Origin: Utricularia gibba
Taxonomy: Eukaryota > Streptophyta > Magnoliopsida > Lamiales > Lentibulariaceae
NCBI GenBank assembly: GCA_002189035.1
Contig: NEEC01000015.1
Coordinates: 1,240,001 to 1,304,000 of the forward strand
Reading direction: 5' to 3'
Length of the DNA: 64,000 nucleotides
In this document: piece after piece, positions 2,067 through 44,197 of the stretch
How positions within the stretch are numbered: position 1 is the stretch's first letter
How the letters are laid out: each line of letters opens with the position of its first letter
The notes under the pieces: generated by a model
Seen by the model: the letters and a program-made list of their open reading frames with translations, nothing else
Database searches by the model: none
Told to the model about the DNA's origin: nothing
Translations under genes and position numbers: made by a program

Positions 2067-4639
2067 GATAACTTTGAATTGGACTTAGGAAAATGCTTCG
2101 TCCTGCACCACGTTCAGATTTTGTACGGTCTCCTTATTTGCATGCATACAGATTATACCTCAGTCTCTGAGAAGCAGCACAGCACAGGTTCTTTCGTAGT
2201 TTTGTTTTCAGTTTAGCCCCCTGATAAGAGAGGAGAAAGTTCAGCAGAAATCCAGAAAACTTAAGAGAAGAATAGCCCAGAAGGGTTTTGGCAGCAGTAG
2301 GTTTTCTTCCAGGGCGCACACCTACCAGGACACTCGCTCTCACAGGCTCTCTGGAGAAAGAGATAAGTAAATGGCTGACACGACGTTGATGTACCACCAG
2401 TGCAATTGACTATCTATCTAGCAACTTGGAATTGAATCTTCATAAGCATTTATGCACGATTTTATCTGTTGAAAAGCTTGGATTACAGATGGCGGCATTA
2501 CTAGCTGATAAACCCATGGATATTCATATCAATAATTGGAGACAAAAGTGGGATGTTACATTAGGATGGGTAGTATAGGAAATTGGGACGTCATGGTTGA
2601 AAGTTTGGTAATGTTATCAGTTGAATTTCAAGCAGATTTGTAATGCTTCTGTAACTTGGTTTTGGAGAAAACACATTTATCCCACATTCAGAATCTCATA
2701 AAGTTGTTGATTCTGATTCTGTACTTCACCCCCCCAAATCTTTCATCGGATTTCTCTTTTTGTGGGAAGTGTTCAGGGAGTGAGTGGGGGATGCAGACTG
2801 GGCACTTCGCTTTGAAACAAATTTATGCCTTGGTTCATGCACAGAGACACATGGGGTTTATATCAAACCCCACTTCGTATGTAGATCTCTATCTATAAGA
2901 TAAGGTTTGCTCCATCAGAAAAGTGGAATACAGTTGCATCTACAGATAGAGACAAAAAATACGTCATTCGAGGGACGAAAGATGCAGGAACAAGTCTTTC
3001 AGCTTCTGTAGCGGCTTGTGCTGGTGGAGCCTGGGAGCATGAGAACCAGATTCTTGAATAACTAGCTGCCAAATACACGCAGTTGTGGTTGTGAAGGGCC
3101 ACACTTTCAACAACTCCGGGGAGCATAGGCTGGCTGTGTGTTTGCAAACAAACAAGAGTGGATAGGCGGGGTTCCTAGTCACTGTTGCTAATTTCTGGAT
3201 GTTCTGCATCTCTGAAATGAGACTCTAATTCCCCTTCCAGATCTGGGGAAGTACAGTAATAAGAGTTGTTCAGTTTTGCGGGAGAATGTGGATTCTCACG
3301 CAACTTCTGTTTCTCTCAGGTAACAGACGTTGATGTGGTGCTCCGAGAAGAAACATAAATCATTAGCATGGTAAAAAAACGAGTACAAATCAAATCACCC
3401 ACCCCTCTTCTGTGTATTTGGTGCGTCCCAAAAAACAACTTTCAGAAAATGATTCTACAAACCCTTCAGTTTTTTTAGGATCAAAGTTTCATAAACTTCT
3501 CAAAAAATTGAAACACTTCATTATTTTTAAAAATACTTTTATTAAAACTGGAGCTACATCAAACAAACATAACCAACCTTTATTGAACGTTCATACCCAC
3601 TTTTTATAATACACAGGGGCGGGTAATGAACTTTCATGGGTCCGCCGGCGACAGGTCACTCCGTGGCGGCGACCCAGGGACACCCAAAGATGATTAATTT
3701 AGTATGATGAAATCTGAAGTTTCTTTGATGTGCAACATGACCATCTCGAACAATGCAGCAGCAGTCCCGTCTCTTTCTCCCAAATGAATGCGTGTGTCCC
3801 AACAGCTCCATCCATGTCTGAACTGTGACAACCGCCATGATTGTCTGAGGAAGAGGGACTTCTACGACGCCCTTCATTTACCATCTTCTAAATTGACTTT
3901 GCATAGTCTTTTAACACCCACCTGGTCTCCCTCAACCCAATTAAAAATCAATCCTTTGTTCAATCATGTATTTTAAAATTCCATATTGAACCTGATTCAA
4001 ATTATTATAAAAAAGATCGAATCAAATCATGAATAAATTGAATAATAAGTTAAATCAGAATTTAAACAAAATGTCAATTCTGCATTTAAAAATAAAACTG
4101 TATTTTACTTAGTTAGAATAAATCCATATTGGTTTTTCAGTTTCGATTTTGAACTTTTTGGATAAATCACACTCTCAAACAGTATACTTAAGCAACATTT
4201 GAAAACCATAAGAATGGTTTTGTATTCCAAACGTACATCTAATTTTATTCTAATAGAATTAATTTTTTAGAATCATTTCATTTTTTTTATGAAAAATATG
4301 AAATATTAGATTTTTTAAAAGAATTAATTTTCGAGAAATAACTCTAAAATTGAAATTAAGGTTATATCCTTATAAATAATTTAATTAACTTAATTAATAA
4401 ATTATAATTTTAATATGAATATATTTAAATTAAAGTAATATTATAAATGATAATTTAAAATATAATGTAATATTTTTATTATACAAGTGGTATATAAAAA
4501 AATATTTTTCAAATTATAAATTAATAAAATATAATTATTAAATATGAATAAATATATCATTTAATTATGAAAAACAATATTTATTTTTTATATTCGTAGC
4601 ATAAATTTATTTTATAATATTCATTCTAAGCAAACACTT

Positions 4640-4642
<3 letters not shown>

Positions 4643-4700
<58 letters not shown>
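4643..4700. repeat. (AT)29 microsatellite
   Basis: Uninterrupted AT dinucleotide repeat of 58 bases in AT-rich intergenic DNA about 500 bases upstream of the HD-Zip gene. Confidence 0.95.
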
Positions 4701-4702
<2 letters not shown>

Positions 4703-5165
4703 AATCTTATTTTATCAGAATTTTCGATTCCACAAAAATAAATTTTAGAGTGATTTTTTCAAACGTATACGAAATCACAAATTAGTAAGTGTGGGTTATT
4801 TACAAATTTAAAATGAAAATAAAATAGAATAAGAATTGAAAGTTGTGTAGAAAAGTCCATAACTACGAGCTTCACATTTCTAGAGATGTAGGTCCAACGC
4901 CACGTGAAGCAATACACGAGAAGTCACCTCCGACGACTCCCATCGCTTTCCTTCTTCATCAGCACCTTCAGATATTGCTTTTTTTTTTTTGCTTTGGAAG
5001 AACTAGAGGCCTTTAATTTTTCAAAACCCGCCATTAATATTCATAAATATGATGCAGGGCAAGTTGCATTTACGATATTTTAGAAAGTCTGAAACCTAGG
5101 CTATCTGTACATGCGTATATATGGGATGCATTGGATCGCACACTGGAGACGGATACAACTGCATA

Positions 5166-24637: not shown

Positions 24638-24672
24638 TCATCGCCCGTTTAGTCCTTCCCTCATTTTGAAGT

Positions 24673-26058
24673 ATGCAGAAGGTGAAAACGATCTCGCCGT
24701 TCAGACTCTCATCGCTTCTCCGTTTACAGAAGGATCCGATTTCAGCTCTTGAGCTCTTCCTCAACCCGAATCCCGATGCCCCGAAAAAGAATTCCAAGCC
24801 CTTTCGTCACTCTCTGTTGTCCTACGATCTCATCATCACTAAGCTTGGGCGTGCCAAGTTGTTCCCTGAAATGCAAAGAATCGTGGAGAAGCTGAAAGAT
24901 GACAAACGCATTGTGCCTGAAGAGATCATTTTTTGTAATGTTATTACATACTATGGCCGTGGCCGTATGCCCGATAAGGCCATAAGGATTTTTCAAGAGA
25001 TCCCTATGTTTAGGTGCCAAAGGACGATTAAATCTGCCAATACATTGCTGAATAGCCTTCTTATGTGCCGGGAATTTGGTATGATGCGGGATACTTTTTC
25101 CTGGATCGAGAAGCATGCTGTCCCTGATGCTTGTACTTACAATATACTGATAAATGCTTGCTTTCTGAGGTCTGATTCCAGTGGAGCTTGGGAGTGGTTT
25201 GATGAAATGAAGAAGAGAGGATGCGAGCCTAACTTGGTGACATTTGGAACGCTGATTAATGGGCTATGTGGGAATATGGAACTGGGACAGGCTTTCGCGC
25301 TGAAGAGATGGATGGAGAGGGAGACGAATATCAGGCCTAATGTGCATATTTATGTGGCTTTGATCAAAGGTCTATGCAAAGTGAATGATTTCAGAAAGGC
25401 TGTTGAATTAAAAGATGAAATGATAAGAAGGGAGGTGCCTTTAGATCCTGCAGTTTATTCTACAATGATCAGTGCCTTCCTCAAGGTTGGTAGTAGGACA
25501 GAGGCATTTGAATTGTTGGAGGAAATGAGGCAGAATGGTTGTAACCCCGATACTGTAACTTTTAACGCAATAATACATGGATATTGTCAAGATATGGATA
25601 TTGATTCTGCTTTCAGGACCTTGTCCGAGATGGAGAATGAGGGGTGCATACCAGATGTGATCAGCTACAATATCATAATTGGTGGGCTGTGTCGTGATGG
25701 GAGGGTTGAAGAAGCTAAGGATTTGTTAGATGACATGCCACGCTTAAGATGCCCACCAGATTTGATAACTTACAAGACGTTATTTGATGGGTTTTGCAGT
25801 GCTTTGGATTTTAAAGCAGCAGCAGATCTTCTAGATGAGATGATTTATAAGGGTTATGTTCCTTGTATCTCTCGTGTATCTAATTATGTAGATGTTTTGG
25901 TGCAAGGGAATAGCATGGAAGCATGGACATTTCTGTTTAGGTTGCTGAAAATAAATCATACTTGTAGATATGTATGGAGATTTTTATGCTGCTTGGTCTG
26001 CAGGGGTTGTCCTGTAGAAGATCTTGAACGGGTTAGCTTACTGATAAAGGCTTACTGA
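24673..26058 (+). CDS. P-class pentatricopeptide repeat protein, At1g53330-like
   Basis: Intronless, 461 aa, as usual for PPR genes. About ten 35-residue PPR motifs run from about residue 50 to 430, for example DACTYNILINACFLRSDSSG, NLVTFGTLINGLCG and DTVTFNAIIHGYC. No E, E+ or DYW tail is present, so it is P-class. Such proteins bind organellar RNA in a sequence-specific way to protect, cut or splice transcripts. The N-terminus (ISPFRLSSLLRLQKDPISAL) and CQRTIKSANTLLNSLL closely resemble Arabidopsis At1g53330. Targeting to mitochondria is more likely than to plastids, but the N-terminus is ambiguous. The only upstream in-frame ATG choice is the one used. No break seen; the C-terminal last repeats are more diverged than the middle ones. 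Confidence 0.9.
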   Translation: MQKVKTISPFRLSSLLRLQKDPISALELFLNPNPDAPKKNSKPFRHSLLSYDLIITKLGRAKLFPEMQRIVEKLKDDKRIVPEEIIFCNVITYYGRGRMPDKAIRIFQEIPMFRCQRTIKSANTLLNSLLMCREFGMMRDTFSWIEKHAVPDACTYNILINACFLRSDSSGAWEWFDEMKKRGCEPNLVTFGTLINGLCGNMELGQAFALKRWMERETNIRPNVHIYVALIKGLCKVNDFRKAVELKDEMIRREVPLDPAVYSTMISAFLKVGSRTEAFELLEEMRQNGCNPDTVTFNAIIHGYCQDMDIDSAFRTLSEMENEGCIPDVISYNIIIGGLCRDGRVEEAKDLLDDMPRLRCPPDLITYKTLFDGFCSALDFKAAADLLDEMIYKGYVPCISRVSNYVDVLVQGNSMEAWTFLFRLLKINHTCRYVWRFLCCLVCRGCPVEDLERVSLLIKAY

Positions 26059-27449
26059 GTTCACCTCCTTTGAGGACGAGTTGCTCTCACTAAGCTTTGT
26101 ATCACAATTGATCATAGACATGAGCCTCTCTGTGAAATTCATGATAACTTGCATGAGCTGGGAAGGCTGGTAGCTACAGTTTCTGACGAACAAGGTGCGC
26201 CAGAAGAAGAAGAGCATTCTGCCGGACACATCTCAGCATCCAGCCTTCTCACTTGTGTACAAGACGGGCCTCTGACTCATGATGAGTTCATCGATCATCC
26301 TTAATTCTTGGGGAGTTTCTGGTGTTCTCTTGCTCGTCTCAATATGTTTACTCTCAACAGGTTGTAGCAAGAAAGCTTCCTACAAGGCAGACCGGGTTAT
26401 TCTTTGAAAACAAGTTCACTGATTGGGACTCTGATGGAAGGCCTTCAGCCACTTCTCATACAGTCATGCCGGTGCTGCACATGTAAACGCATGAAAGCAG
26501 CTTTGGTTGAGCAGTGAAGTTTCTACGTGGCAGGGGATTCGTCATTGAGGAAGGAGAATCACTCACACTTTACAAGGGAATGCATGGAGTATATATCTGC
26601 TGTTGCTAGTAATGTAGGATTCACTGATGGAAGGTGGAGGGTTTATGTATCAAAACGATGGATGGAAGTAAAGGTTGTCAGTGCTCAGCTCGTTGCAGAA
26701 TTATGAAGTATGCACAATAACATGAAAACATTGGAATCTGAAGCTGAAGCATTCCATCTAAGGCGGCCTCTGCGGATCCTTATTGGTTTTGGATTATCAA
26801 AGCGAAGCCTGGAAACGAAGAAGAGCTGCAACTATTCTGAATCCAGGAAAAGCTGAGAAACCCACCTGCGGATCGTCTCGTGGGGTTCTGGTATCTGACG
26901 GCAATGCTTCGTGATTCAAGACCTCCATCCAAACTTGACAAAACGGCTTCCTTTTTGTACTTCAAAAACGGTGACTTGTGGGGAACGAAGGTTTTAAAAA
27001 TCTGAGGTTGAATATTAGGCTTCCCTTTAGGGCTTGGGTGGGCATGATGTCTAATTGATAATAAAGGCCCATATTATTGGGCCGGGTTGAACCGTGGGGC
27101 AGCCCAAATACAAGTGCAGCAGTAGGAATCTGGGTGTGGGGCCCGCGAGCAGCCAACCCCGCTCTCTGTTTTCTCGATCCTCGAAAACAAAAAGGCTGGT
27201 GGGGGTGAGGGTGAGAGATGAAAATGGCGAAAAGCAGCTTTCACAAGCTTGGCGCAGTTACACAGTGACTAAGCGTCGTCTTTGTGGACTGGGATGGCTG
27301 AGTGAGGGCGCTAAATTTACAAGGTTTTCCTCCTTCCCCCAAGTTCCTCGCCTTGCTGTCGATCCCAAGTGTCGTCAGCTGTTTCTTCTGATCAGAGCTC
27401 TCGAAGTTTACAGCAACTTATTGCGAGGAGTTAGTTTGAATCTGGGCAA
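26059..27449. other. Intergenic region: PPR 3' flank and NHL gene promoter
   Basis: 26060-27000 has moderate GC and several short frames, none with a family motif; it may be a long 3' UTR or eroded coding DNA. A site II cluster lies at 27066-27108 and the rest is the NHL gene leader. An open frame at 27094-27453 overlaps this leader and shows no known motif. Confidence 0.5.
27066..27108. promoter_or_regulatory. Site II (TGGGCC) cluster upstream of the NHL gene
   Basis: GGCCCA, TGGGCC and GCCCAA within 43 bases, about 340 bases before the start codon. Confidence 0.45.
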
Positions 27450-29602
27450 ATGAGGCTCACCCTCGTCGTCGTCACATTGGCGGCATTTGTACTTGGAGGC
27501 GGGCTGGAGTTGCAAGCTGACGCCGCATCTGCTGGTACTCGTATTTATGCTTTTGCTTCTCTCACTCTTTTTTTTTTTTTTCAAAAAAGGCGTTTGATTC
27601 TGGGTTTGCTGCAGATTTGCCTGCGGTGAAGTTACGCTGTCAATTTTAATGCCATTTTGCTTGTGTTGCTTTATTTTGCCGATTATTTCTTCAGGGCTGT
27701 TGATAAGGCAGTTGACCTCTCTTGTGAAGTGGACTAGGCCTTCCTCGAAAGCTGTTAACCAATTGGGTAATTGTTTTTTTGGTCGCGATTAGCATTGCTA
27801 AGAGTTCTGGTTTTCATCATTCTTTCGCCATAGACTTGCTTTTTTTCACTAGCCGCTTTCTTGTAGATGTAAACGTGCTGCAATTTGAAGATGGGTATCT
27901 AGTAGAGACTGTGGTTGAAGGAAATGATCTGGGTGTCGTGCCGTACTCGATCCGAACATCACGGGATGGGGAACTGTTTGCTGTTGATGCCGTCAATAGT
28001 AACATTGTTCGAATTACCCCTCCACTCTCCCGATGTGGGTGCTCTCTTATTCCATTTGCTAAAATTTTGTCTTTGCTTACGTTGATTCCCATGTTACTCA
28101 TAGAGTGGCTATTGCATCCAAGCAGATAGTAGAGCAAGACTGGTGGCAGGGTCATTTCAGGGTCACACTGGCCATGTTGATGGGAAACCCAGTGATGCTC
28201 GTTTTAACCGTCCAAAAGGGGTTACCGTTGATGAAAAAGGCAATGTTTATGTAGCTGATACAGCAAATCTAGCCATTAGAAAGATTGCAGATGGAGGTAT
28301 ATATAGTCAGCTGCCTTTCTTTTACTGGACACATCAACAAGCATAACTTCTAGGCTAGCTTCTAACATCTTGGAGCATTCATCACAGGTGTGACAACAAT
28401 TGCTGGAGGGAAATCGAATGTTGCAGGATACAGGGATGGCCCAAGTGAAGATGCGAAGTTCTCCAGTGATTTCGATATTGTGTATGTTAGGAGTACATGC
28501 TCTTTGTTAGTTATTGACAGAGGGAACGTTGCTCTTCGTAAGATATCATTAAATCGAGAGGATTGTGATTACCAGAACCACTCAATCGCTCCAACAGGTT
28601 TGTGGGAATCTTGAGTTCTTTCATGATGTACCTTCCTTCAAAAATTAATTCATAGTGAATCCTTGAATTGTCCTTTTCGTGCAGACCTGTTGTTAGTTGT
28701 TGGTGCTATCTTAATGGGTTATATTGCATGCAAGCTTCAGCAAGGCTTTGGTTCCTTCTTTTCTCCCAGGATGGTACATTATCCATATCTGTTATCACGT
28801 TTCCATCTTAATCAAAAAGCTTATTGGTTATCTGTCATTCCTGCAATAATCTTCGCCTTGTTCTTGATTACCAACTTAACTTTTGACTTGTCGATGATGC
28901 CTTCTTCACTTACATCTGCAGGAAGGACATCATGGTGCTAAGATGGAGGAGGAATTGGGAAGTAAAGTGATGCCAGATTCTTCTGATGGTTCTGTGAAGG
29001 AAGAACAAGAAGCGGGTTGGCCATCGTTTGGAGAACTACTGTGGGATGTTATCAAACTCGCACCTGAAGCTATTACTGGAATTGCATCTCAGTTTGCACC
29101 CTCTCTCTTCAAAGAACCCGCCCACAGAGATAGTCTAACGCCACTAAAAGACTCTCTAGTCATGCCTGAAGATGAATCTGAGTCTTCTCCATCTTTGAGA
29201 CAGAGGACTCCAACTCCACTTTCTGAGACCAGGCAGGCTAATGTACCATCTCCCAGCTCCATTCCTAGGGATAGATTTTCTGAAGTCAAAACTCCGAAAA
29301 TGAGGTCTACCAGCTCAAAAGACCGTGCTGCTTTGCCAAGCAAGCACAGGTCATCAAGAAGGCAAGAATATTCGGAATTTTATGGGTCTGGCGACACTCC
29401 TCCTCAGCATGGACAAGTGAGATCTAAGATTCACAAAGAGAGATCAAGGCATAGAGATAAGAACGGGGAGGGGTCATTTGCAGCATCATCTGGAATGGAT
29501 TCAAAGCCTGTTGAGAACAAGGGAAGTAGCTACGACAAAGCCAAGTATGATCCTTACAGTTTCCGGAGCAAATTCAGTGGTGAACCATACCACTTCGAAT
29601 GA
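27450..29602 (+). CDS. NHL-repeat membrane protein (At3g14860 type)
   Basis: Seven exons: 27450..27534, 27695..27766, 27867..28034, 28126..28296, 28388..28597, 28685..28773 and 28922..29602, giving 491 aa with consistent phases. The N-terminus is a signal peptide (LTLVVVTLAAFVLGGGLEL). NHL beta-propeller repeats follow at about 60-210: VVPYSIRTSRDGELFAVDAVNSNIVRI as one blade, then DARFNRPKGVTVDEKGNVYVAD with TANLAIRKI, then DAKFSSDFDIVYV with GNVALRKI. A single membrane segment is at about 237-256 (LLLVVGAILMGYIACKL). The remaining ~230 residues are hydrophilic, Ser/Pro- and Lys-rich, and end in YDPYSFRSKFSGEPYHFE. Topology is therefore a secreted or lumenal propeller with a long cytosolic tail. 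NHL propellers bind protein or polysaccharide partners; this plant group has no known activity. Resembles Arabidopsis At3g14860 and At5g14890. Confidence 0.9.
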
Positions 29603-30114
29603 ATAGCTAAGAATGCTTCTTGCTGAACCAATGTATTTAGTATGTCTCTGCCATCTCTTCAACTCTGTTGGCATTGAGATTAGCATCCATGGGAATTGCA
29701 CCTGTTTTTGACTTTATACATCCTCGTGTGATTGCAATTCAAGCCTCTTTCAGATATCTTTACGTCCGTTCATAAATATCACAACCTGTTTTTCATGTCA
29801 TGGGCACCAAGAAACACCAAGATTGTTTCTTTTTACACAAGATCAGCTCGTCAGCTTCAATACAACAGCCGCAAGAAGTTTTCAACTGTCATTGGCATTA
29901 CATAAATCTTCTTTATAGATATATAGAAAATAAGCAATTGGCCAAACTGGCAAACAAAACAGAACAAAGCCTGTGAAATCAAGGAAATTAAAAAGATGAG
30001 GGAGGTTTTATAGACACAACACTTAGAGTAACAGTTCCTCAGAAAAATGAAAAACATTGTAAAATTATTAAGTCAGATAAGTTTTAGCAACATTGATATG
30101 CATATGCAAAACGA
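29603..30114. other. Convergent 3' flanks
   Basis: Space between the NHL gene (plus) and receptor kinase 1 (minus); AT-rich, probably both 3' UTRs. Nothing else seen. Confidence 0.6.
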
Positions 30115-33100
30115 TCAGAAATCTTTGGTGTGACTGTTACCACCTACATCTCTCGTTGAAACTGTGGCTGAAGAGTCCACCCATCCTGTGACGGAAGTAT
30201 CATGGTCCGAGGTCTCTTCAGACAACATCGACGCTCGTGTTTGGCTGTCTTGTGACACAACTTCAAGAGCCTTGAACTTGCCTTCTTCGTTCTGTGCGCT
30301 GCGCTTGATGACCGGGGCTTGAACTGGGATCTTCCCTTCGAGCATCTTCACCACAGAGGACATGGGGGGCGGAGAGTTGGTGAGGGATTGGCACACAGAA
30401 GTGCCAAGTCTAGCATCCTCCTGACCTCTGTTTTTGAGTAGTTGGAACCAAGGCTGGGATCCACAAGCTCCAACAGGTTGCCTTGCTCGTGCAGAACATA
30501 AGCCTGAACACAGGGTTGGGTACCATTGATTGATTACCAGTGCAAAAATGCAGATGAAACTTAAACTATGCACACAAGTTTACCCAGTCAAGAAGAAACA
30601 CAAACTCCTCCCTTGGCCTGTAGTTAGTGTTGCTTTTTCCGCTGACAATTTCTAGCGCCAGGATTCCAAAGCTGTAGACATCAGCCTTATCCGTCAAATA
30701 GCCTCTCATTGCATACTCTGGAGCCATGTAGCCTCTGGGAGAACACATGATAGGGAAAGTGTGAACATACACACACACAGCACAGAGATTTATATAGAAA
30801 AAAAAAAGGGAAGAAGCTTACATAGTCCCTACAACTCTTGTGCTGATATGAGTATCTTCTTCTTCATCAAGCTTGGCTAAACCGAAATCGGATATCTTGG
30901 CATTCAAGTCCTTGTCAAGAAGAACATTGGTAGCTTTGATATCTCTGTGGACAATTTTTAGCCTCGACTCCTCATGAAGATAAGCAAGGCCTTTGGCTAT
31001 CCCTATGCATATCTTCATTCTTGTTGGCCAGTCCAGCTTCAGTCGTTGCTCGTCACGGCCTAATTAATATACACAACAAACATAAGTATTACATGAGGGA
31101 ATCTATCATGGACACCGTCTCCAGCTTACCAAATATGGCACGAGCAAGACAGTTGTTTTCCAGATATTCATATACCAGGAGCAATTGGTTTGCTTCTATG
31201 CAACAGCCGAAAAGCCTCACAAGATTGGGATGCTGTACGGCAGAGATCACACCGATCTCATTCAAAAATTCTCGGTTTCCCTGCTTTGACTTGGAGGAAA
31301 GCTGCTTGACTGCAATCAGGGTACCATCTGAAAGAGCCCCCTGAAGCAGCAAAGTTTGTTTCAGGTTCATCTAAAGTTGAACCTAAACTGATGAAACCAA
31401 TACCTTAAAAACTGGCCCGAATCCTCCCTCGCCAATCTTGTTGGCAGCATCAAAGTTATTTGTGGCTGTTTTTAAATGTTTCAACGTGAAATACCCTGTT
31501 TGCAGATCAGGTGGTCGAAGATCTGTATCAAGGAATTGACAGGCAAAGAGTTAGGTGCAGAATGAATATCTCAAAATAACTCCTCCAAGAGTAGGTAGGC
31601 TAGAAATATGATACCATTGTCATCAGCTTTTCCTCCTATGATTCCCGTTTTCCATAGAAGAAGTAAAGCAAGCAAAACCGCCACACACGCAGAAACAGCA
31701 ATTCCAGCGATAGCTCCAGCAGGTAGCCCTGTGCTAACGTCAAAGTCTACAAAGAAACACGAAGCCTTGTGATCCAATATGCCCAAGATGAGAAAAAGGA
31801 AAACGTTAAGCTTGAAATAAGAAGATGTACTTGGTGTCACAGCAATGGCAGAAATCAGGGGTCCATACACGCCTCTGTCAGGAATGGCTACTGTCCCTTG
31901 TCCCCTCCAGAATAAATGGATCTCCAGTGTGCTGCCATTCACATTGACATTAAATTCCCTGTATATGCCTCTCCTTACACCACCAGCTTCCCTTGCGATG
32001 TCGAAGTCTGACAAAACCACCTCCCCTACCATGTATGAAAAATGAGGTGACTCATTTTGGAGATAAATATTACAAGTCTCCAGTCTACTCACTTGGATTG
32101 CCACATCAAAAATCCTTCTCCCAAGGCTGCTGAAGTTGGCAGTCTCAGTGAAAATGATTTCTGCAAAATACAGGCGAACTCTGTAGCTACCACTCCGCAA
32201 ACAAAGCCCATAGAACCGGAGAGAAGAAGGGGAGAGGCGTGCAGTTTGGTAAATTTCAGCATCCCCAGATATCATAGCTGAGGTGTTTGCTGCAAGAAAG
32301 CTGGCATCATCATTTCCCATGTAAACACCAGTGCTACTGTACCCCCATCTATTATTATGGCTTTCAAAATGTGACGATCCTTCACTACTCATGTTCTCTT
32401 CATATTCATTGTTTCCAATTCTTGTTGCACGTCCTCCACAGTTTATGAAAAACGAGAACCCTGCAAATGCAGTGAAATCAAGAGCATTTATGAATGAAAG
32501 AATACTCCAACTACAATATTAAGATGTCTTACGGTTTGCATTTCCAGGACAGGGGAGGTCTGGCCTCAAGCACCAATGATTTCTACAAAATAAGTAATCA
32601 TATGTCATGAAAATAAATATGGAGAACCATGATTCAGAATCTAATATATAATTTACAACAACGCACGAGTTACTCAATGTTGAGCTTGATTGACTGGCCA
32701 CCAAATTTCTGCAAAGACACATTAACACTCAAGCTACCAGCATCATCTAAAAAGGTTCTGTCAAATGCATGATTAAAAAAACTTACATGTTGGAAAACTG
32801 GCAACCAACTTCTTGGGACCGAGTGAAGTTGTTGAATGAGAGATCCCTGCAGTGGGAAGTAGGAATGATTCCCCAAGCAATATTTAAGCTATAGAAAACT
32901 GATGCACAGCTCCTTCTATGTTAAGTAGGTAATCAGCGTGTTGGATAACTGTGAGAACTTGGTGGAGAATTATATAAACTCTTACATGTTACGTCTGCTA
33001 TCCAGGATCCAGTCAGGTATTTCTCCTGTCAATGAATTTTCAGACAGAAATCTGCAAAGGAACCAAATAATAAAAATCCTGAAGCAAACAATCTTGAACT

Positions 33101-35371
33101 TTTAAGAACCAGCCACATTCCTTTCGAACTATGGTTAAGGTACATACAAGTAATCGATGCTCTCAACCTCCTGGAGGGTGCTGGGGATTTCACCATTCAA
33201 ATTGTTGAAACTCAGGTCCCTGCAAAAAGTAATAATACATAATAAGAAAAAGAGACACTCTCGTTATGAAAGAAATATGTCACAGTCCTTACAATGTTGT
33301 TAGATTACTCATGCTTCCTATGTATGGAGGAATCGGACCAGTGATTGAGCAATTTCTCAATATCCTGCATTGACATCCAACAAAACATTATACTTTTGAA
33401 GATTTAGGAGCCGTAAATTGCTTTAACCAATGCTACTTACAAGTCCTCCATTCTTGACAAACCTTGCAGATTAGGAAACCTTTGGCTTGGACCTCTCAAA
33501 TCTGCAATCCTCCTGATAGCATAATCCAACTAAAACTTCACGTCTTTTTTGGCTACTCAAGCTCAGCATGATCAAAGAAAAACCAAATCTATGCCTGTAT
33601 TTATTGGAATACGACATTCACAAATAGGGGGTACTCACAAGCCACTCAAGTTTCTCAATAAAGAAATTGTGCTTGGAATAGGACCCTCCATGGATGTGCC
33701 TTGCATGTCACTGATATAGATTTAATGCATAATTCACATGAATACTGCATATCATGAAAATTTCAAGAGGAATTGAGACAATTGCAATGTTTCTAACTTA
33801 CAGCCTTCCAATTCTGGTCCAATTGCCAATAAAATCAGGAATTCTCCCTGTCATCTGCGTCCCATCTATGCGACTACATTCAAAACAAAGAAGCTGGTAT
33901 TGACACACGTTCATGAACGAATTTTTGGCATATGATGTTTTGGGCTTCTAAGAGCATGCAACAGATCCAACGATGATCCTCTTACAAGTCTGTCAAGTTC
34001 CTCAGATTGGAAAAACTGGCTGGTATTGTCCCATTCAGAAAATTTGAAGACAGCATTCTGCAAAGGCAACCTCAGACTCAGAAAATGCGGTATGCCGAAC
34101 AAGCATCATGCTAAATTAAAATAAAAAAACAGTAATCTTACAGTCTCCTTAAATTGCTCAAATTTCCGAGACTTGCTGGAAGATTTCCCTCAAGGAGATT
34201 ATCTTCCAAAACCCTGCAGTTTTGTACAATGAAAGGTGGATGAAGAGTTTTATAAATGGAAAACGCATATGCTTTTCATCACTCACATTTCCTCAAGATT
34301 GGAGATGCTACCAAGTTCATCTGGGATTGGGCCACTAAGGCGGTTTCCAACAAGGGAACTGAAAAGAAACTACATTTAATCTGATTGTCAACATCTTCAT
34401 AATGATCATAGGTTACAAAAGCAAGCTTACAGTATTCGAACACGAAGCCGCCCATACGCTCTAGGTATTGTCCCATTCAGGTAATTCCGAGAAAGATCAC
34501 TAAAAAGATGAAAAAAGAGAAAGAATCAATCTTTTTTTCTGCCCTTTCATCTATTTAGTACAACCAAAGGATACAAAAGTTTATACTCACATCTCTTGTA
34601 AAAAGGTAAGATTCAGAAACTCCAAAGGCAAAGTTCCAGTCATATTTAGACCCCTCAGCCAGCTGAAAATAAAACATAATTTAAGAATGGCATTTTTGCA
34701 TTCATAATTTGCCGCTTGAAGGAGATTAAGATACGTACATGTTAGTAACATGGCATACAGTATTGTTGTTGAATGAACAGTCACAGACAACAGAGCTTAA
34801 TATTCTACGTCTAACGAAAGTCACATTAAATGCATCAGGATCAACGCAAGAACTCCTGGAGATATTGCTCCAGTAATTGTTCTGCAGCGTGGAGGATATG
34901 GCCTCAAGAGCTCGTACTGTTCGAAAAAATCAAAACTCCATGAGCAGTAGATAAAAAAAACAGCCCCACATGAGCAACAAAATCAGTGAACTCTAAATAG
35001 GCAGTAGGTAGATCGGAAAAATAATTCAGCATCATTAACTACATCTCCAAATTAAAGTTCTGTAAAGTTACTATGATTAAACTGAAACCTTCCTAAAATA
35101 ATGAGAACTTTAAAAGACCCTGGCATTCTTGACCAACCACAACAATAAGTTACCGTCCCAAGAATTCTACAGAAATCATACTTCAAAAGATACAAACACA
35201 CCAAATGAAAAGCAGCATTAAAATGCATCCAAAAGGGAAATCTTGCCAACCCGCTTCCCCATTTTTCCAACCAGCTTACACCAAGTAAAAAGAAGTCAAA
35301 CCTTCATCTTGAGGAATAAGTTGCGCCGCGCAAGTGCACAACAGCAGCGCGAAAACCCCGGAAAGAAGCAT
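30115..35371 (-). CDS. Malectin/LRR receptor-like kinase (LRR-VIII-2), copy 1, frameshifted end
   Basis: A many-exon gene on the minus strand. The first exon, 35302..35371, encodes a signal peptide ([18 protein letters not shown]). Exon 34739..34916 holds the LRR cap with its Cys pair; exons then encode one LRR each, mostly 72 nt in phase 2 (e.g. 34591..34662), down to about 33,000. A malectin domain follows (about 32,440-31,830: [19 protein letters not shown]), then a membrane segment (about 31,730-31,650: [13 protein letters not shown]) and a kinase (about 31,510-30,350). Kinase residues are complete: AVKQL lysine, [14 protein letters not shown] and APEYA, so an active RD kinase is expected. 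The family includes RFK1, LIK1 and At1g53430. Odd: against copy 2 one C is missing at about 30370, so the frame shifts after TLRPP and stops at 30348-30350. That loses the last kinase helix and the tail, which is otherwise preserved to 30115. Confidence 0.88.
30570..31800. repeat. Near-identical kinase segment shared with 37,700-38,940
   Basis: This kinase/membrane part of copy 1, introns included, matches copy 2 at an offset of about 7,139 bases. Over about 31,020-31,750 I count only a handful of differences. Immediately upstream, in the malectin and LRR exons, the copies differ at roughly one base in five to ten. Confidence 0.85.
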
Positions 35372-37286
35372 TCTTTTCGAAATGTGAACACCGTCAGAGA
35401 CCCCCAAATGGAAAGATATTAAGTTCCCATCTTTTGACTCCGTACGAGTGGAAGCTTCATCAAACTGCAGCCGCAGTAGAAAGACACATCTCCACAAACA
35501 AACCGCTCAAATGCTACGGTTGGCAGATGGATTCAAATAAATGCTGTTTCTTAGAAACAGAAGACGGAGAGGAGAGGACCCAGCTTCGCTAGAGTGAAAC
35601 AGAGCATTGATTGGCGTTGGTACTCCTCCGGTGAAAACGAAGACGAAGTTATCCAGCAACGGCTGATGTGTAACGATGCGACGGGACAACGTCTATGAAT
35701 TTCACGAAATTATCCGTAAATTCAAATTAAACAAACAGAAATAAAAAAATAAAAAAAATAAACGTCAAAGCCTCTGCAGTCGCCCCGACGGTAATAATTT
35801 TTTAACCCTCAAAATTTCCGATTTTATTTTATAGTCACTTTCAAGTTTCTAATTTGAATTTACGTAATTTATTAAAATTTAAAAAATACTTTTAAATTTT
35901 AACATTTTTAAAAAATGATTTGTATTTTATAATAAAACTAATTGTTAATCGTTTTTTCAAAAGCAAAATAATTGGAATTTAATATGTTTTATTTGTGGGC
36001 ATGACTCAAAAAAAGCTTTTTTTTTTGAGAAATGATATTCTATATAATTAAGTAAAATATAGCACACATCTTGGGAAGATTCTTCTTTGAAAAAGCACCA
36101 AGATTTTTCTTTCTTTGTAAACCCATATTGAACAATTTTAAGTATTAAATAATTATTTATTCATTTTTTGATACAACTTTATACCTCGAATATTGCATAT
36201 TATTTTCATAAATCATGAATTTTTTGGCGAAATAAAATATTATACCAAAAATAACGCGAGGGAATGAGCCGATGACGGGAAGTTTGAAATTTACAAAAAT
36301 TATTTGGATGCAAAATGAGATTTCGAATTTGAGGAACGGTGCTGACTAATGATAATAATGATGAATTCAGGGGTCGATGTTTAATTTTGAAAGTGGTTTC
36401 ATGTGAACGGTCTGAAAACCAAAAAATGAATGTTCAAATAAAGACGCCAGAGGTATATTTGCAGTAAACCAAAATTCGGTGTTACAAATGTTATTTATTG
36501 ATCAGGTGGGCCCAGTTCAAACTGGCGCACGTGGCCTTACAATCCCATCCTTTTCCGACAGCTAATTTTGCCCGAACGTGGACCCCCCTCCACCCCAACC
36601 CAATCCTGTCACCAACTCCCAGCTTTGTTCTGGTACTTATTGGTGATTTAAGACATTTATCATATAATATATGAATTTTACTGTGAGAATTAATCAATGT
36701 TTTAAAAATGATTTGAATTCAATAACTGGAATCGGATTCAATAATTTTAATTGTATTTTAAAAAAATTTTAAAACTAAAAAAATATGATTTAAACAGATT
36801 TAACTCACTCCTCGTTTTAATCATGAGCTTACATTAAAGCAAATCTGGTCTTCCATTACACATGAGTTTAAAATACTGGAGTTAATATAACATTGGACTC
36901 ATTTTCCGATGAAGGGGCCCACAATGGAAATTAATGTATTGGCCCAATAAGCTGCGGGTGTCGGCCCAAGTACGGACCGAGGTAAGTATCCTGATATGAG
37001 CCCAACTAGTTCGTGTGGGATGGAATTGGAAGAAATTTGAAGAGAAACACCGAAATCACATTGGCTAATAATTTGGTAACCTATGCTTATCTTGTAATTA
37101 TTGATGTAATAAACAATGTTTATCCATGACAAATATGTGACAGGTTTTGATGGGGTTGGTTCTATGACATGTAACGAGGTTCCCAACGGGGAGTACGTGC
37201 ATGGTATACCATGAGAAACACAAGCCGCTTTAAAAGGGAAACAACCAGTGATCTTTGGTAAGCCTGTCGTCGCTTCCATCTCTGGT
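35372..37286. other. Intergenic region between the tandem receptor kinases
   Basis: Promoter of copy 1 and 3' flank of copy 2. 35700-36480 is AT-rich. A group of GGCCCA words lies at 36915-36968, with more near 36510. No gene recognised; a 167-codon minus frame ending at 36899 has no family motif and overlaps the end of copy 2. Confidence 0.55.
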
Positions 37287-40200
37287 TCAAACTTTGGCCG
37301 GAGAAGATGAATCTGTCCACCCCGTGACGGAGGTATCGTGGTCCAGGGTCTCGTCAGACAACATCGACGCTCGTGTTTGGCTGTCCTGTGACACAACTTC
37401 AAGAGCCTTGAACCTGCCTTCTTCGTTCTGGGAGCTGCGCTTGATGACTGGTGCTTGAACTGGGATCTTCCCTTCGAGCATCTTCACCACAGAGGACATG
37501 GGGGGCCGGAGAGTTGGTGAGGGATTGGCACACAGAAGGGCCAGGTCTAGCATCCTCTTGACCTCTGTTTTTGAGTATTTTGAACCAAGGCTGGGATCCA
37601 CAAGCTCCAACAGGTTGCCTTGCTCGTGCAGAACATAAGCCTGAACACAGGGTTGGGTAACGTTGATCGATTGCCAGTGCAAAAATGCAGATGAAATTTG
37701 AACTGTGCACACAAGTTTACCCAGTCAAGAAGAAACACAAACTCCTCCCTTGGCCTGTAGTTAGTGTTGCTTTTTCCGCTGACAATTTCTAGCGCCACGA
37801 TTCCAAAGCTGTAGACATCAGCCTTATCCGTCAAATAGCCTCTCATTGCATACTCTGGAGCCATGTAGCCTCTGGGAGAACACATGAAAGGGAAAGTGTG
37901 AACATACACACACACACACAGCACAGAGATTTATATAGAAAAAAAGAGAAAGAAGCTTACATAGTCCCTGCGACTCTTGTGCTGATATGCGTATCTTCTT
38001 CTTCATCGAGCTTGGCTAAACCGAAATCGGATATCTTGGCATTCAAGTCCTTGTCAAGAAGAACATTGGTAGCTTTGATATCTCTGTGGACAATTTTTAG
38101 CCTCGACTCCTCATGAAGATAAGCAAGGCCTTTGGCTATCCCTATGCATATCTTCATTCTTGTTGGCCAGTCCAGCTTCAGTCGTTGCTCGTCACGGCCT
38201 AATTAATATACACAACAAACATAAGTATTACATGAGGGAATCTATCATGGACACCGTCTCCAGCTTACCAAATAAGGCACGAGCAAGACAGTTGTTTTCC
38301 AGATATTCATATACCAGGAGCAATTGGTTTGCTTCTATGCAACAGCCGAAAAGCCTCACAAGATTGGGATGCTGTACGGCAGAGATCACACCGATCTCAT
38401 TCAAAAATTCTCGGTTTCCCTGCTTTGACTTGGAGGAAAGCTGCTTGACTGCAATCAGGGTACCATCTGAAAGAGCCCCCTGAAGCAGCAAAGTTTGTTT
38501 CAGGTTCATCTAAAGTTGAACCTAAACTGATGAAACCAATACCTTAAAAACTGGCCCGAATCCTCCCTCGCCAATCTTGTTGGCAGCATCAAAGTTATTT
38601 GTGGCTGTTTTTAAATGTTTCAACGTGAAATACCCTGTTTGCAGATCAGGTGGTCGAAGATCTGTATCAAGGAATTGACAGGCAAAGAGTTAGGTGCAGA
38701 ATGAATATCTCAAAATAACTCCTCCAAGAGTAGGTAGGCTAGAAATATGATACCATTGTCATCAGCTTTTCCTCCTATGATTCCCGTTTTCCATAGAAGA
38801 AGTAAAGCAAGCAAAATTGCCACCACACACGCAGAAACAGCAATTCCAGCGATAGCTCCAGCAGACAGCCCTGTGCTAACGTTAAAGTCTACAAAGAAAC
38901 ACGAAGCCTTGTGATCCAATATTCCCAAGAAGAGAAAAAGGAAAACGTTAAGCTTGAAATAAAAAGATGTACTTGGTGTCACAGCAATGGCAGAAATCAG
39001 GGGTCCGTACGCCCCTCTATATGGAGTGGATGTTGTCCCTTGTCCTTTCCAGGATAAATGAATCTCCAGTGTGCTGCTATTCACAAGGACATTAAAGTCC
39101 CGGTATATGCCCCTCCTTACACCACCAGCTTCCCTTGCAATGTCGAAGTCTGACAAGACCACCTCACCCTACCATGAATTTATAATGAGGTAATTAGAAT
39201 CCAAGATGAATGTATAAACACTGATCAACTCACTTGGATTGCCACATCAAAAATCCTTCTCCCAAGGCTGCTGAAGTTGGCAGTCTCAGTGAACACTATT
39301 TCTGCAAAATGGAGGCGAACTCTGTAGCTACCTCTGCGCAAACAAAGCCCAAAGAACCTGAGAGAAGGGGAGAGACGTGCAGTTTGGTAAATTTCAGCAT
39401 CCCCAGATATCATAGCGGAGGCGTTTGACGCTAGAAAGGAGACAGCATCATTTCCCACGTAAACACCGTTGCTACTATATGCCCATCTATCATTATAGCT
39501 TTCAAAATGTGATGGCCCATCGCCAGTCAAGTTCTCATCATATTCATCATTTCCAATTCTTGTTGCACGTCCTCCACAGTTTATGAAAAATGAGAACCCT
39601 GCAAATGCAGTGAAATCAAGAGCATTTAATGAAAGAGTACTCCAAATTACAATCTCGAGATTTTATACTGTTCGCATTTCTAGGACAAGGGAGGTTTGGC
39701 CTCAGGCACCAAGCATTCCTACAAAATAAGTAAATGGTATGTTATGAAAAAAAATATAGAGAGAATCATGATTCATACTCTAATATACAATCTAGAAAAG
39801 CGCACATGTTACGTGTCGAACTTGAAAGACTGGCCACCAAGTTTCTGCAAACATACATGAACATTCAAGCAAACAGCTTTCAAATTAATTTTTATCACAT
39901 GCATTGTCAGAAATACTTACATATTAGTAGACTGGCAACCAACTAGGCGTGAACTTGTGAAATTGTTGAATGAGAGATCCCTGCAGTCAAAGATAGCCAT
40001 GAATTCCCGAAGCAATAGAAGACCGATGGATTGTTCCTTCTAGATTAAGTACGCAATTCTGATGTTTGTTAGAGTGGAACATCATCCAAATTCTTACATG
40101 TTTCGTCTACTATCCACGATCCAGTCAGGTACTTGTCCGGTCAATGAATTTTGAGACAAATATCTGCAGAAAATTTAAATATTGTCACCCCGTATCTGAT

Positions 40201-42484
40201 AAGAACCGCAAAACTCTTGGAACTTTAAGAACCAGTCACAGGCTCACAAACAACGCTTAGGTTACATACAAGAAACGGATCTGCCGAAGCTGTTGAAGTG
40301 TTCCAGGGACTTCACCATTCAAATTATTGACACTTAGGTCCCTGTGAAGAAGTGATAGTATATAAGTAGAAAAACGTCATATCCTTCAGACTAGAACATA
40401 AGCAGAAAGATTCTCTCGTTTAGCTTCAGACAATAACATATGCAAAAGGATGCTCTCATTTGAAGAAAAACATGCCCAAGTCCTTACAACGTTCCTAGAG
40501 TAGTCATGTTTCCCAAGTATATAGGGATCGGACCAGTGATTGAGCAATTTCTCAATATTCTGCATTCACATACAACAAAACATTATCCTTTGAGAGATTT
40601 TAAGGCCATGGATTATTTTTCAACAGTAGAACATACAACTCCTGCATTCTTGTCATATCTTGCAGATTAGGGAAACTTTGACTTGGTCCACGCAGATCCG
40701 TAATCCTCCTAGAAGGAGATTCATATGAGAGTCGGCATTTTACTATGTTAATCTTTATTGCAAGAGGCACTGAAAATAGGCACTTACAAATTACTCAAGT
40801 TTCGCAATTGAGCAAACGTGTTCGGAATAGGACCCTCCATCAATGTGCCTTGCATGTCACTGAAACACATTTAACCCACTGAACGCATGAAACTTACATA
40901 CAACGAAAACATAAAAAGTAAGAAGTGAAATAAAAGCAACATTTCTAACTTACAGTCTTCCAAGTCTGGTCAAGTTGCCAATAAAATCTGGAATTCTTCC
41001 AGTAATCTGTGTCCCATCTATGCGACTAAATTCAAAAAAAAAAATGACACTGAAACATATTCATGGACAAATTTGGGCGTAAATGTTTTGGGGCATCTAA
41101 GAAGATCTAAAAAATCCAGATAATGTTCTGCTTACAAGTCCCACAAGTTCCTCAGATTGGAAAAACTGCTTGGCAGCGTCCCATTAAGAAAATTTGCACT
41201 AAGTAATCTGCAGATTTAATCTCAGTTTCAGAGAGCACACCATTAACAGCCCTCGGCATCAGTTTTTTCATACTAAAGAAAAAATGAAATACTATTCAAA
41301 TAACTAGAAACAAGAGCAATCTTACAGTCTCCCTAAATTGCTCAAATTTCCTAGGCTTGCCGGAAGATTTCCCTCAAGCGAATTATCTTCCAAAACCCTG
41401 CAGTTTGTACAATGAAAAGTGGATGAAGAAGTTGTTTTAACCCAAACCAGATATGCTTTACATAACTCACAGTTCCTCAAGATTAGGCATGTCACCAATC
41501 TCATCTGGTATTGGACCATTAATACGGTTTCCGAGAAGGGACCTGAAAAGTACACTACATTTAATCTGACATTCGACATGTTTTGCTAGTTGTAGGTTAC
41601 CAAACCCGCTTACAAGAACCGAACACGAAGCTGCCCATATACTCTAGGAATCGTCCCATTCAGGTAATTCCGGGCAAGGTCACTGAAAAATGGTAAAAAA
41701 GAATCATGTTTTGGTCTTTCCGTGCAAGCTCAACTTTCAAAATTATTACATCTCACACTCCAGCACAACCACAAGAGGACACTTACATCTCCTGTAAGAA
41801 GGTAAGATTCACAAACTCTGAAGGCAAAGTTCCAGTCATATTTAGTCCCCTCAGCTGGCTGAAAATAAAAAGAATTTACGAGTGACAATTTGTATTGACG
41901 ATTTACTGCTTGAAGGAGATGATACGTACATGTTAGTAACATGGCAGACGGTATTGTTGCTGAATGAACAGTCACACACAACGGCACTTTGTATTCTACG
42001 CCCATCAAAACTCACGTTAAATGCATTAGGATCAACGCAAGAACTCCTTGATATGTTATTCCAGTAACTGTTTTCCAGGGTGGAGGATATCGCTTCAAGA
42101 GCTCGAACTGTTCAAAAGAATCAAACTTAGTACACGATCCCTAAATAAACACAGCATATGAACAGCAAACTTTCAAGAAAATCTGTGTTTTCCAATCGCG
42201 TCAAGAAAGTTGCTTCATAAAAATTTCGACCGCCCAAAACTTAAACTCGCTGCTTCGAGAATTTACAGTAATCAGAAACCATAAACAAAACGAAAAGGAA
42301 CATCAGAAAAATCAAAACCGGAAGTTGATCCAACCCATTCCTCCAGTACGTCCACCAGCTTACAACGTGACAAAAAAAAAAAAAAAAGGAAACGACTGAT
42401 CCTCCGAAACAAACCTTCATCCTGAGGAAGAAGTTGAGCGGCACAAGAACAGAAAAGCAGCGCAATAACACCAGCGAGTAGCAT
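37287..42484 (-). CDS. Malectin/LRR receptor-like kinase (LRR-VIII-2), copy 2
   Basis: Tandem paralogue of the preceding gene, same strand and exon plan. The signal peptide begins at 42484 ([18 protein letters not shown]). The LRR cap exon is near 41,935-42,110, and one-LRR exons extend to about 40,000. The malectin domain spans about 39,600-38,980 ([36 protein letters not shown]), the membrane segment about 38,870-38,790, and the kinase about 38,650-37,480 with [24 protein letters not shown] and APEYAMRG. The C-terminal frame is intact here: [15 protein letters not shown] continues to [13 protein letters not shown] and the stop at 37287. These plasma-membrane receptors carry an outer malectin plus LRR region likely to bind wall or peptide ligands; LIK1 and relatives act in immunity and RFK1 in pollen-tube function. 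The tail is shorter than in copy 1. No break found, though not every LRR junction was checked base by base. Confidence 0.92.
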
Positions 42485-43522
42485 TCTTCTCGAAATGCTT
42501 GACAGTCACAGGCCCTCGACAGAAATATATAAGGCGCCATATTTGACTCCGTACGAATGTAAACTTCATCAAACCAGTCAAATGCTACCCGGTTAGCGGA
42601 TTGATTCAAATGTGTATCCGGGATAGGGTTTGCGGAGAGGACCCAGTTTTGTTGAAGAAAAGAAAACCAGGGAAGGCGGATACCAGGCATGGTTGCAGTC
42701 TGCGGCGGAGCGCGTGGGTGCGGAGACTGTTTATGGAATGTTTTCCTAAAAATAAAAATAGAGCCATCAAATGGAAATAGAATGAATTTCATTTAAATTC
42801 CGATTTAAAATTGGGAATTATTTCAAATAAAAAATACATTAAAAAACTTAATTCAAAATTCATTTTTTATAAAAATATATTGATTTTCGATTTCATATTT
42901 TATAATCGATGCTAGAACGGTCGATTCATAAGCCATGGAACAAGTTGATATTGCTTACGTCTATCTATTTTATAGATCATTTTAATAAATTATTAATAAT
43001 GTGGACAAATTTGTTAGGGCAGGAGAGCCGCCTCGTCGGCACTGCTGGTGCTCGGCTGGCGGTATCATGATAAACATTGTAATTAATACAAAATGTTGGT
43101 GGGGTACAAATTATAATTACTAGAAACAATGGGCGGACGACATACTTAATTTGGAAGCTTTAGTACGGATGCGGATGACTCAATGAGTGAAAACACTGGA
43201 CCAAAACGAAATGGTAATAAAGAAAGATTTTTTTTAGTCACGTAAGTTAAACAGAAATCACTTAAATCCTTTTGTTTAAGATATATATATATAATAATAA
43301 TATATCTTGTGTGTAATTCTCTATTTGAAATAATTTATATTTTAAAAAATAGTTTTAAAAACAGTTTTATTATCAAATGATTTCTATTTTAAAAAAGATT
43401 AATTAAAATTTTTTTCCGATGTACTTTTCCAAAAATTTTATCAAATCAAAATTAAGGTAATGTTTGAAAAAATCAATCCATAATTAATTTTAACATAATT
43501 GAAAAAATTAATAAAATAACAT

Positions 43523-43577
<55 letters not shown>

Positions 43578-44197
43578 GAAGTATTTTTAAAATGATTATT
43601 ATAGAATTGATTAATCTTTTAAATAAAAAATAAAATTAATTTTTATAATTAAATTATATACTTATCCATATTTATTAATAATTATATTTTATATATTTAT
43701 TTAAATAAAATATATTATATAATATCAATATTTATCAAAACTTATCTAATATTATCCAAGTAATATTTATTTTTAAAATTATATTAAAAAATAAGTATAA
43801 TAATAAATCTATTTGTTACAATCATATTTTAAAAAATAATCCTATATAAGAAGCTATATATTCATATTTTTAGAGATTGAATTGACTATAAAAAAAAAAT
43901 CAATTCTCATAAGAAAAAATCATGTGCATATTTAAAATTTAAAATCAATTATATGAAAATAAAATTGAATTTAGTAGACTCTAATTAGTTTCAAGACATC
44001 GCCTAAGATATTGTATGTATAGTCATTGTTAGTGGGATAGTTCTCAGAAATTCAGACGTATGTGAAGGGCCGGCGAACCAAAGACGAAAACGTCTTAGCT
44101 TGAAGGGAAAGTAATCTCTGTTCGCAATTTGCTGGATGACTTTTTTGTAAGACGGTATTCTGCAAGAAGATCGATCCGGAGTGGTACGCGATAAGCG
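42485..44197. other. AT-rich intergenic region
   Basis: Promoter of receptor copy 2, AT-rich DNA with short AT and TAA runs near 43,280, a long (AT)n repeat, and the LIP5 leader. No gene recognised. Confidence 0.65.
43525..43574. repeat. (AT)25 microsatellite
   Basis: Uninterrupted AT repeat of 50 bases, 620 bases before the LIP5 start codon. Confidence 0.95.

Follow-up and report, generated by a model that had tools for sequence, protein, structure and literature searches.

Near-identical kinase halves on diverged ectodomains point to gene conversion between two tandem LRR-malectin receptor kinase genes of Utricularia gibba

Introduction

Within a 64,000-nt stretch of Utricularia gibba DNA (the window, by which we mean the whole stretch analysed, and whose positions are used throughout), two neighbouring receptor kinase genes are almost identical over one half and clearly diverged over the other. 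How did a single pair of genes come to have two such different levels of divergence? An initial annotation of the window proposed gene conversion, arguing that protein constraint alone would be insufficient. We re-examined the pair using complete exon models, silent-site and intron divergence, an outgroup paralog and searches across the genome. All A-B comparisons below rest on one assembled haplotype.

Results

Two tandem LRR-malectin receptor kinase genes

We constructed 24-exon models for both genes from conserved splice sites and homology. The genes are homologous neighbours, arranged head to tail on the same strand with a spacing of ~7.1 kb:

30109..35371, minus strand: gene A, predicted LRR-malectin receptor kinase, 24 exons (homology and splice sites, alignment)
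37239..42484, minus strand: gene B, tandem copy of gene A, 24 exons, ~980 aa (exon models, Pfam)

The reading frame of gene B is open over exons 1-15 and over exons 16-24, and its predicted product has, in order, a signal peptide-like start, LRRs, a Malectin domain (PF11721; 115.9 bits in a Pfam search of the translation), a TM segment and a kinase domain (PK_Tyr_Ser-Thr, PF07714; 167 bits), the LRRs also giving Pfam matches. The ectodomain of gene B aligns over its full length with PDB 9hhu, a solved LRR-malectin ectodomain (E 4.6e-112), and the kinase motifs AVK, HRD and DFG are intact in both genes. LRRs, a single Malectin domain, a TM segment and a kinase together form the architecture of an LRR-malectin receptor kinase; judged by this domain architecture, A and B are LRR-malectin receptor kinases of the subfamily VIII-2 type. 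With canonical sites, the exon 15 donor and the exon 16 acceptor are mismatched in phase, in A (32583-32708) and B (39719-39844) alike. The adjoining plus-strand genes, at 24670-26058 and ~27435-29602, appear from their translations alone to encode a pentatricopeptide-repeat and an NHL-repeat protein. Elsewhere in the window, repeats of ~270 bp at 4492-4764 and 43462-43725 form an inverted pair, 78% identical, one of them adjoining a TA-rich simple repeat; the pair looks like a dispersed short transposon.

Divergence between the copies is uneven along the genes

In 100-column windows, identity between A and B is 97-100% in the kinase half, 85-89% in the malectin region and 50-85% in the LRR half. 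Synonymous divergence per exon follows the same course, at 0.84 for exons 1-2, 0.45 for the LRR exons and 0.245 for the malectin exons of the ectodomain, and at 0.03 (TM), 0 (exon 20), 0 (exon 21), 0.06 (exon 22), 0 (exon 23) and 0.20 (exon 24) in the 3' half. Introns 1-17 are 12-52% diverged, whereas introns 19-21 show no differences at 225 positions, as the initial annotation's description of near-identical introns implied. Even divergence, which that annotation had named beforehand as the observation that would speak against conversion, is absent from the windows, the exon-wise silent sites and the introns. Indeed, change-point analysis of silent sites preferred, by BIC, four segments with divergences of 0.324, 0.199, 0.010 and 0.081. 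The resulting segments are as follows:

32650..35371, minus strand: gene A signal, N-cap and LRR exons 1-15, unconverted, ~32% silent divergence (segmentation)
31865..32649, minus strand: gene A malectin exons 17-18 and introns 15-17, 14.8% divergence at all sites, ~20% at silent sites (segmentation)
30218..31864, minus strand: putative converted block in gene A, comprising the end of exon 18, TM exon 19, kinase exons 20-24 and introns 18-23 (change-point segmentation)
30109..30217, minus strand: gene A exon 24 3' tail, homologous, 27% diverged, shutting the block on its 3' side (change-point segmentation)
37354..39006, minus strand: putative converted block in gene B (change-point segmentation)
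30870..31677, minus strand: putative recent core in gene A, with introns 19-21 identical (segmentation and silent sites)
38009..38816, minus strand: putative recent core in gene B (change-point segmentation)

The malectin and LRR regions had been described as more diverged, which they are, and this can be refined: the silent divergence of the malectin segment is intermediate between those of the LRR half and the kinase, and at all sites the LRR half is ~26-27% diverged. Exons 2-3 with intron 2 (34585-34935 versus 41781-42128) are ~15-16% diverged, below both flanking regions, and it is possible that this dip marks a small, older conversion tract.

The block ends within homologous DNA on either side and contains a near-perfect core

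Across the block of ~1.65 kb, A and B differ at 38 of 1649 columns (2.3%, all sites), against 14.8% in the malectin segment directly upstream, so the boundary is as sharp as first claimed. The block's upstream edge coincides with the receptor domain border. Within the block, the core has a single difference in 808 columns (0.12%) and none at 312 silent sites, and the shoulders on either side of it are 4.26% and 4.44% diverged in finer all-site change-point models. Core and shoulders differ significantly (p 2e-10 at all sites, 1e-6 at silent sites) and the shoulders are alike. The initial annotation had reported only a few differences over about 730 bases at an offset of about 7,139; the near-identity and the offset (maintained from ~30833 to 31676) hold, but the extent was underestimated, and two nested identity levels occupy the full block. 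Identity was unbroken over as many as 322 consecutive silent sites, compared with at most 61 across 10,000 permutations, in a silent-site test equivalent to the GENECONV check that had been suggested.

On the downstream side, the block ends inside homologous DNA: as had been noted for the 3' tails, the copies diverge again, by 27% over the last 110 bp of homology. This bears on the possibility that unequal crossing-over within the gene pair generated a hybrid gene, so that the 3' half became shared, and that a copy was later lost. Such an exchange would likewise give tandem genes in which an old 5' half is joined to a young 3' half, and for the older event something other than pure conversion is conceivable. 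Nonetheless, crossing-over predicts identity through the 3' end of the homology and into the flank, whereas the homology ends in the diverged 110 bp, and it would not create a nested core; we consider it improbable. After a single unequal crossover, identity would persist to the end of the homology; as the block instead stops short of it and has a diverged homologous flank on each side, gene conversion is the best reading of the pattern.

A further concern, which the initial annotation shared, is that reads from the kinase half were collapsed and duplicated during assembly, or that polishing made the copies alike. With 1 difference in 808 columns, reads within the core have no unique placement, and two one-base losses in gene A beside G/C runs (see below) resemble residual long-read errors. 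However, copying of reads alone would not produce 4.3-4.4% shoulders with scattered intron and synonymous differences. Even with the core excluded, the shoulders differ at 21 of 345 silent sites as compared with 488 of 1529 upstream, and the fetched loci contain no N. Assembly or polishing could account for part of the perfection of the core; shoulders of 4% and a step relative to flanks of 15-27% would stand regardless, and an artefact as the whole explanation seems to us very unlikely, somewhat more so than crossing-over.

An outgroup paralog shows even divergence

As an outgroup we used paralog C (L009 on contig C409), the closest other paralog, whose distances to A and to B are similar throughout. 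Between A and C, silent divergence hardly changes from the ectodomain (0.429) to the kinase (0.439; p 0.69), whereas between A and B it drops from 0.269 to 0.010 (p 1.6e-52); the kinase introns of A and C are 43-58% diverged. Because silent divergence from C is even along the gene, the kinase half shared by A and B is younger, not slower. A single old duplication after which the kinase half was more constrained or mutated more slowly, although in keeping with a kinase protein sequence that is more conserved in all paralogs, is refuted by this comparison and sits poorly with other adjacent pairs (below), leaving it next to no credibility, in agreement with the initial view of constraint.

We found no third near-identical copy that could have served as donor in the genome (516 contigs, 100 Mb), the next best match being the C409 paralog at ~71%, and A groups with B as its sister in the malectin tree as well as in the kinase tree. 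These two results argue that A and B were each other's conversion partner; the sister relationships also speak against a chimeric origin from another paralog. No near-identical kinase tract is present in the other adjacent malectin-LRR kinase genes (contigs C451 and C304), whose longest exact matches are 62, 23, 21 and 20 bp, suggesting that homogenisation was a local event rather than a rule of the family in this genome. In one tandem pair on C451 (L001:4556-5150 versus L002), the malectin exons are 78-89% identical against 68-75% partly on either side, with a 62-bp exact match, in a comparison in which constraint was uncontrolled; this possibly reflects an older conversion of the ectodomain, the opposite partition to that of A and B.

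We also considered whether long stretches identical between A/B and C in the kinase half caused conversion to occur there, and rejected this, as the longest runs (29 versus 17) showed no strong difference. At silent sites compared with C, the block is GC-enriched (160:108) relative to the ectodomain (157:181; p 0.0014). This modest, unpolarised enrichment fits GC-biased conversion and is a weak pointer towards it. Derived sites inside the block, examined for the direction of conversion, were too few to point to a donor.

Ectodomains under purifying selection, and two one-base losses in gene A

At the protein level, A and B are 78% identical over exons 2-14 (LRR), 84% over malectin and 98.7% over kinase exons 20-23. 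The ratio dN/dS is ~0.3 in the ectodomain (LRR 0.143/0.451, malectin 0.084/0.245), and replacements are not enriched at exposed LRR positions (15/55 versus 42/195, p 0.37). These values indicate ectodomains that were left unconverted and are under purifying selection, rather than adaptively diversified; the phrase "diversified ectodomains" in the initial annotation is apt only as a description. The functional outcome, as far as the sequences allow it to be predicted, would be receptors of mixed age, with two sensing halves on near-identical kinases.

Relative to B, gene A has two frameshifting one-base losses, in exon 18 near 32023 (GGGTGAGG to GGGGAGG) and in exon 24 near 30369 (CCGGCCCCCC to CCGCCCCCC), both adjoining G/C runs. 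Intron 17 of A is open in frame given the exon 18 loss, such that the losses either break the frame or need intron 17 to be retained. Derived first- and second-position changes number 45 in A and 60 in B, and A thus has no excess; recent lesions or assembly errors fit the losses better than an old pseudogene does.

Discussion

The divergence between A and B steps down at one domain border, is closed on both sides, is independent of constraint and falls to two nested levels. We propose that ectopic gene conversion between A and B homogenised their membrane and kinase halves, and we regard this as very probable. An old tandem duplication would have produced two LRR-malectin receptor kinase genes, after which non-reciprocal copying between them, probably through strand invasion as a break was repaired, would have overwritten ~1.65 kb, from the end of the malectin region to near the stop codon. 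This older event would date to the time needed to leave ~4% divergence. A second, later conversion of at most ~0.8 kb would then have returned the centre of the block, spanning juxtamembrane and kinase sequence, to near identity. The nested identity levels thus suggest no fewer than two conversions, the earlier one long and the recent one shorter. If plant rates of 7e-9 to 1.5e-8 per site per year are assumed, illustrative ages are <~0.7 My for the core, a few My for the shoulders and ~14-30 My for the LRR half.

The coincidence of the tract edge with a domain border may be a sign of selection, a matter that one pair cannot decide. Selection might partition conversion, such that the TM and kinase module is kept identical by repeated copying and conversions of the sensor half are removed, yielding a pair of sensors joined to a kinase that evolves in concert; we consider this doubtful, if worth stating. 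Regardless of the role of selection, the locus is a clean example, controlled by introns and by an outgroup paralog, in which conversion would have given the parts of a receptor gene different ages along a domain border. For such pairs, trees or dates based on the kinase would be off by more than tenfold (corrected silent divergence ~0.01 in the kinase versus 0.33 in the ectodomain), and kinase-domain phylogenies of receptor families can conceal older, diverged sensors.

By architecture, A and B resemble CORK1, an Arabidopsis LRR-malectin receptor kinase, in having LRRs, a single Malectin domain, a TM segment and an RD-type kinase. Phe residues F520 and F539 have been described in the CORK1 malectin domain (PMC9563578), and A and B each have two malectin Phe residues 19 positions apart, matched by motif and spacing. 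Conversion between tandem receptor kinases is already established. Tandem cysteine-rich receptor-like kinases (CRK) undergo gene conversion (PMC6368629), and in rice gene families that include receptor-like kinases, conversion tracts average 130 nt (range 4-1237), with the orientation and 7.1-kb spacing of A and B lying within the range in which conversion is frequent there (PMC2277409). Like the CRK and rice cases, A and B would represent conversion among near, same-strand duplicates at a usual spacing; unlike the rice tracts, their block is long, at ~1.65 kb with a 0.8-kb core, and its match to a domain border is mildly unusual. The closest parallel in layout is the OAK/At5g59670 cluster of Arabidopsis thaliana, in which an identical 2.7-kb fragment takes in the ectodomain plus 60 bp at the start of the kinase (PMC3136440). 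Both loci have tandem malectin-type LRR receptor kinases with a recently converted fragment whose edge lies near the border between ectodomain and kinase, although OAK has a malectin-like (double) domain and A and B have a single Malectin domain (PF11721). In OAK it is the ectodomain that is identical, whereas A and B are homogenised in the kinase half and diverged in the ectodomain, making this locus its mirror image.
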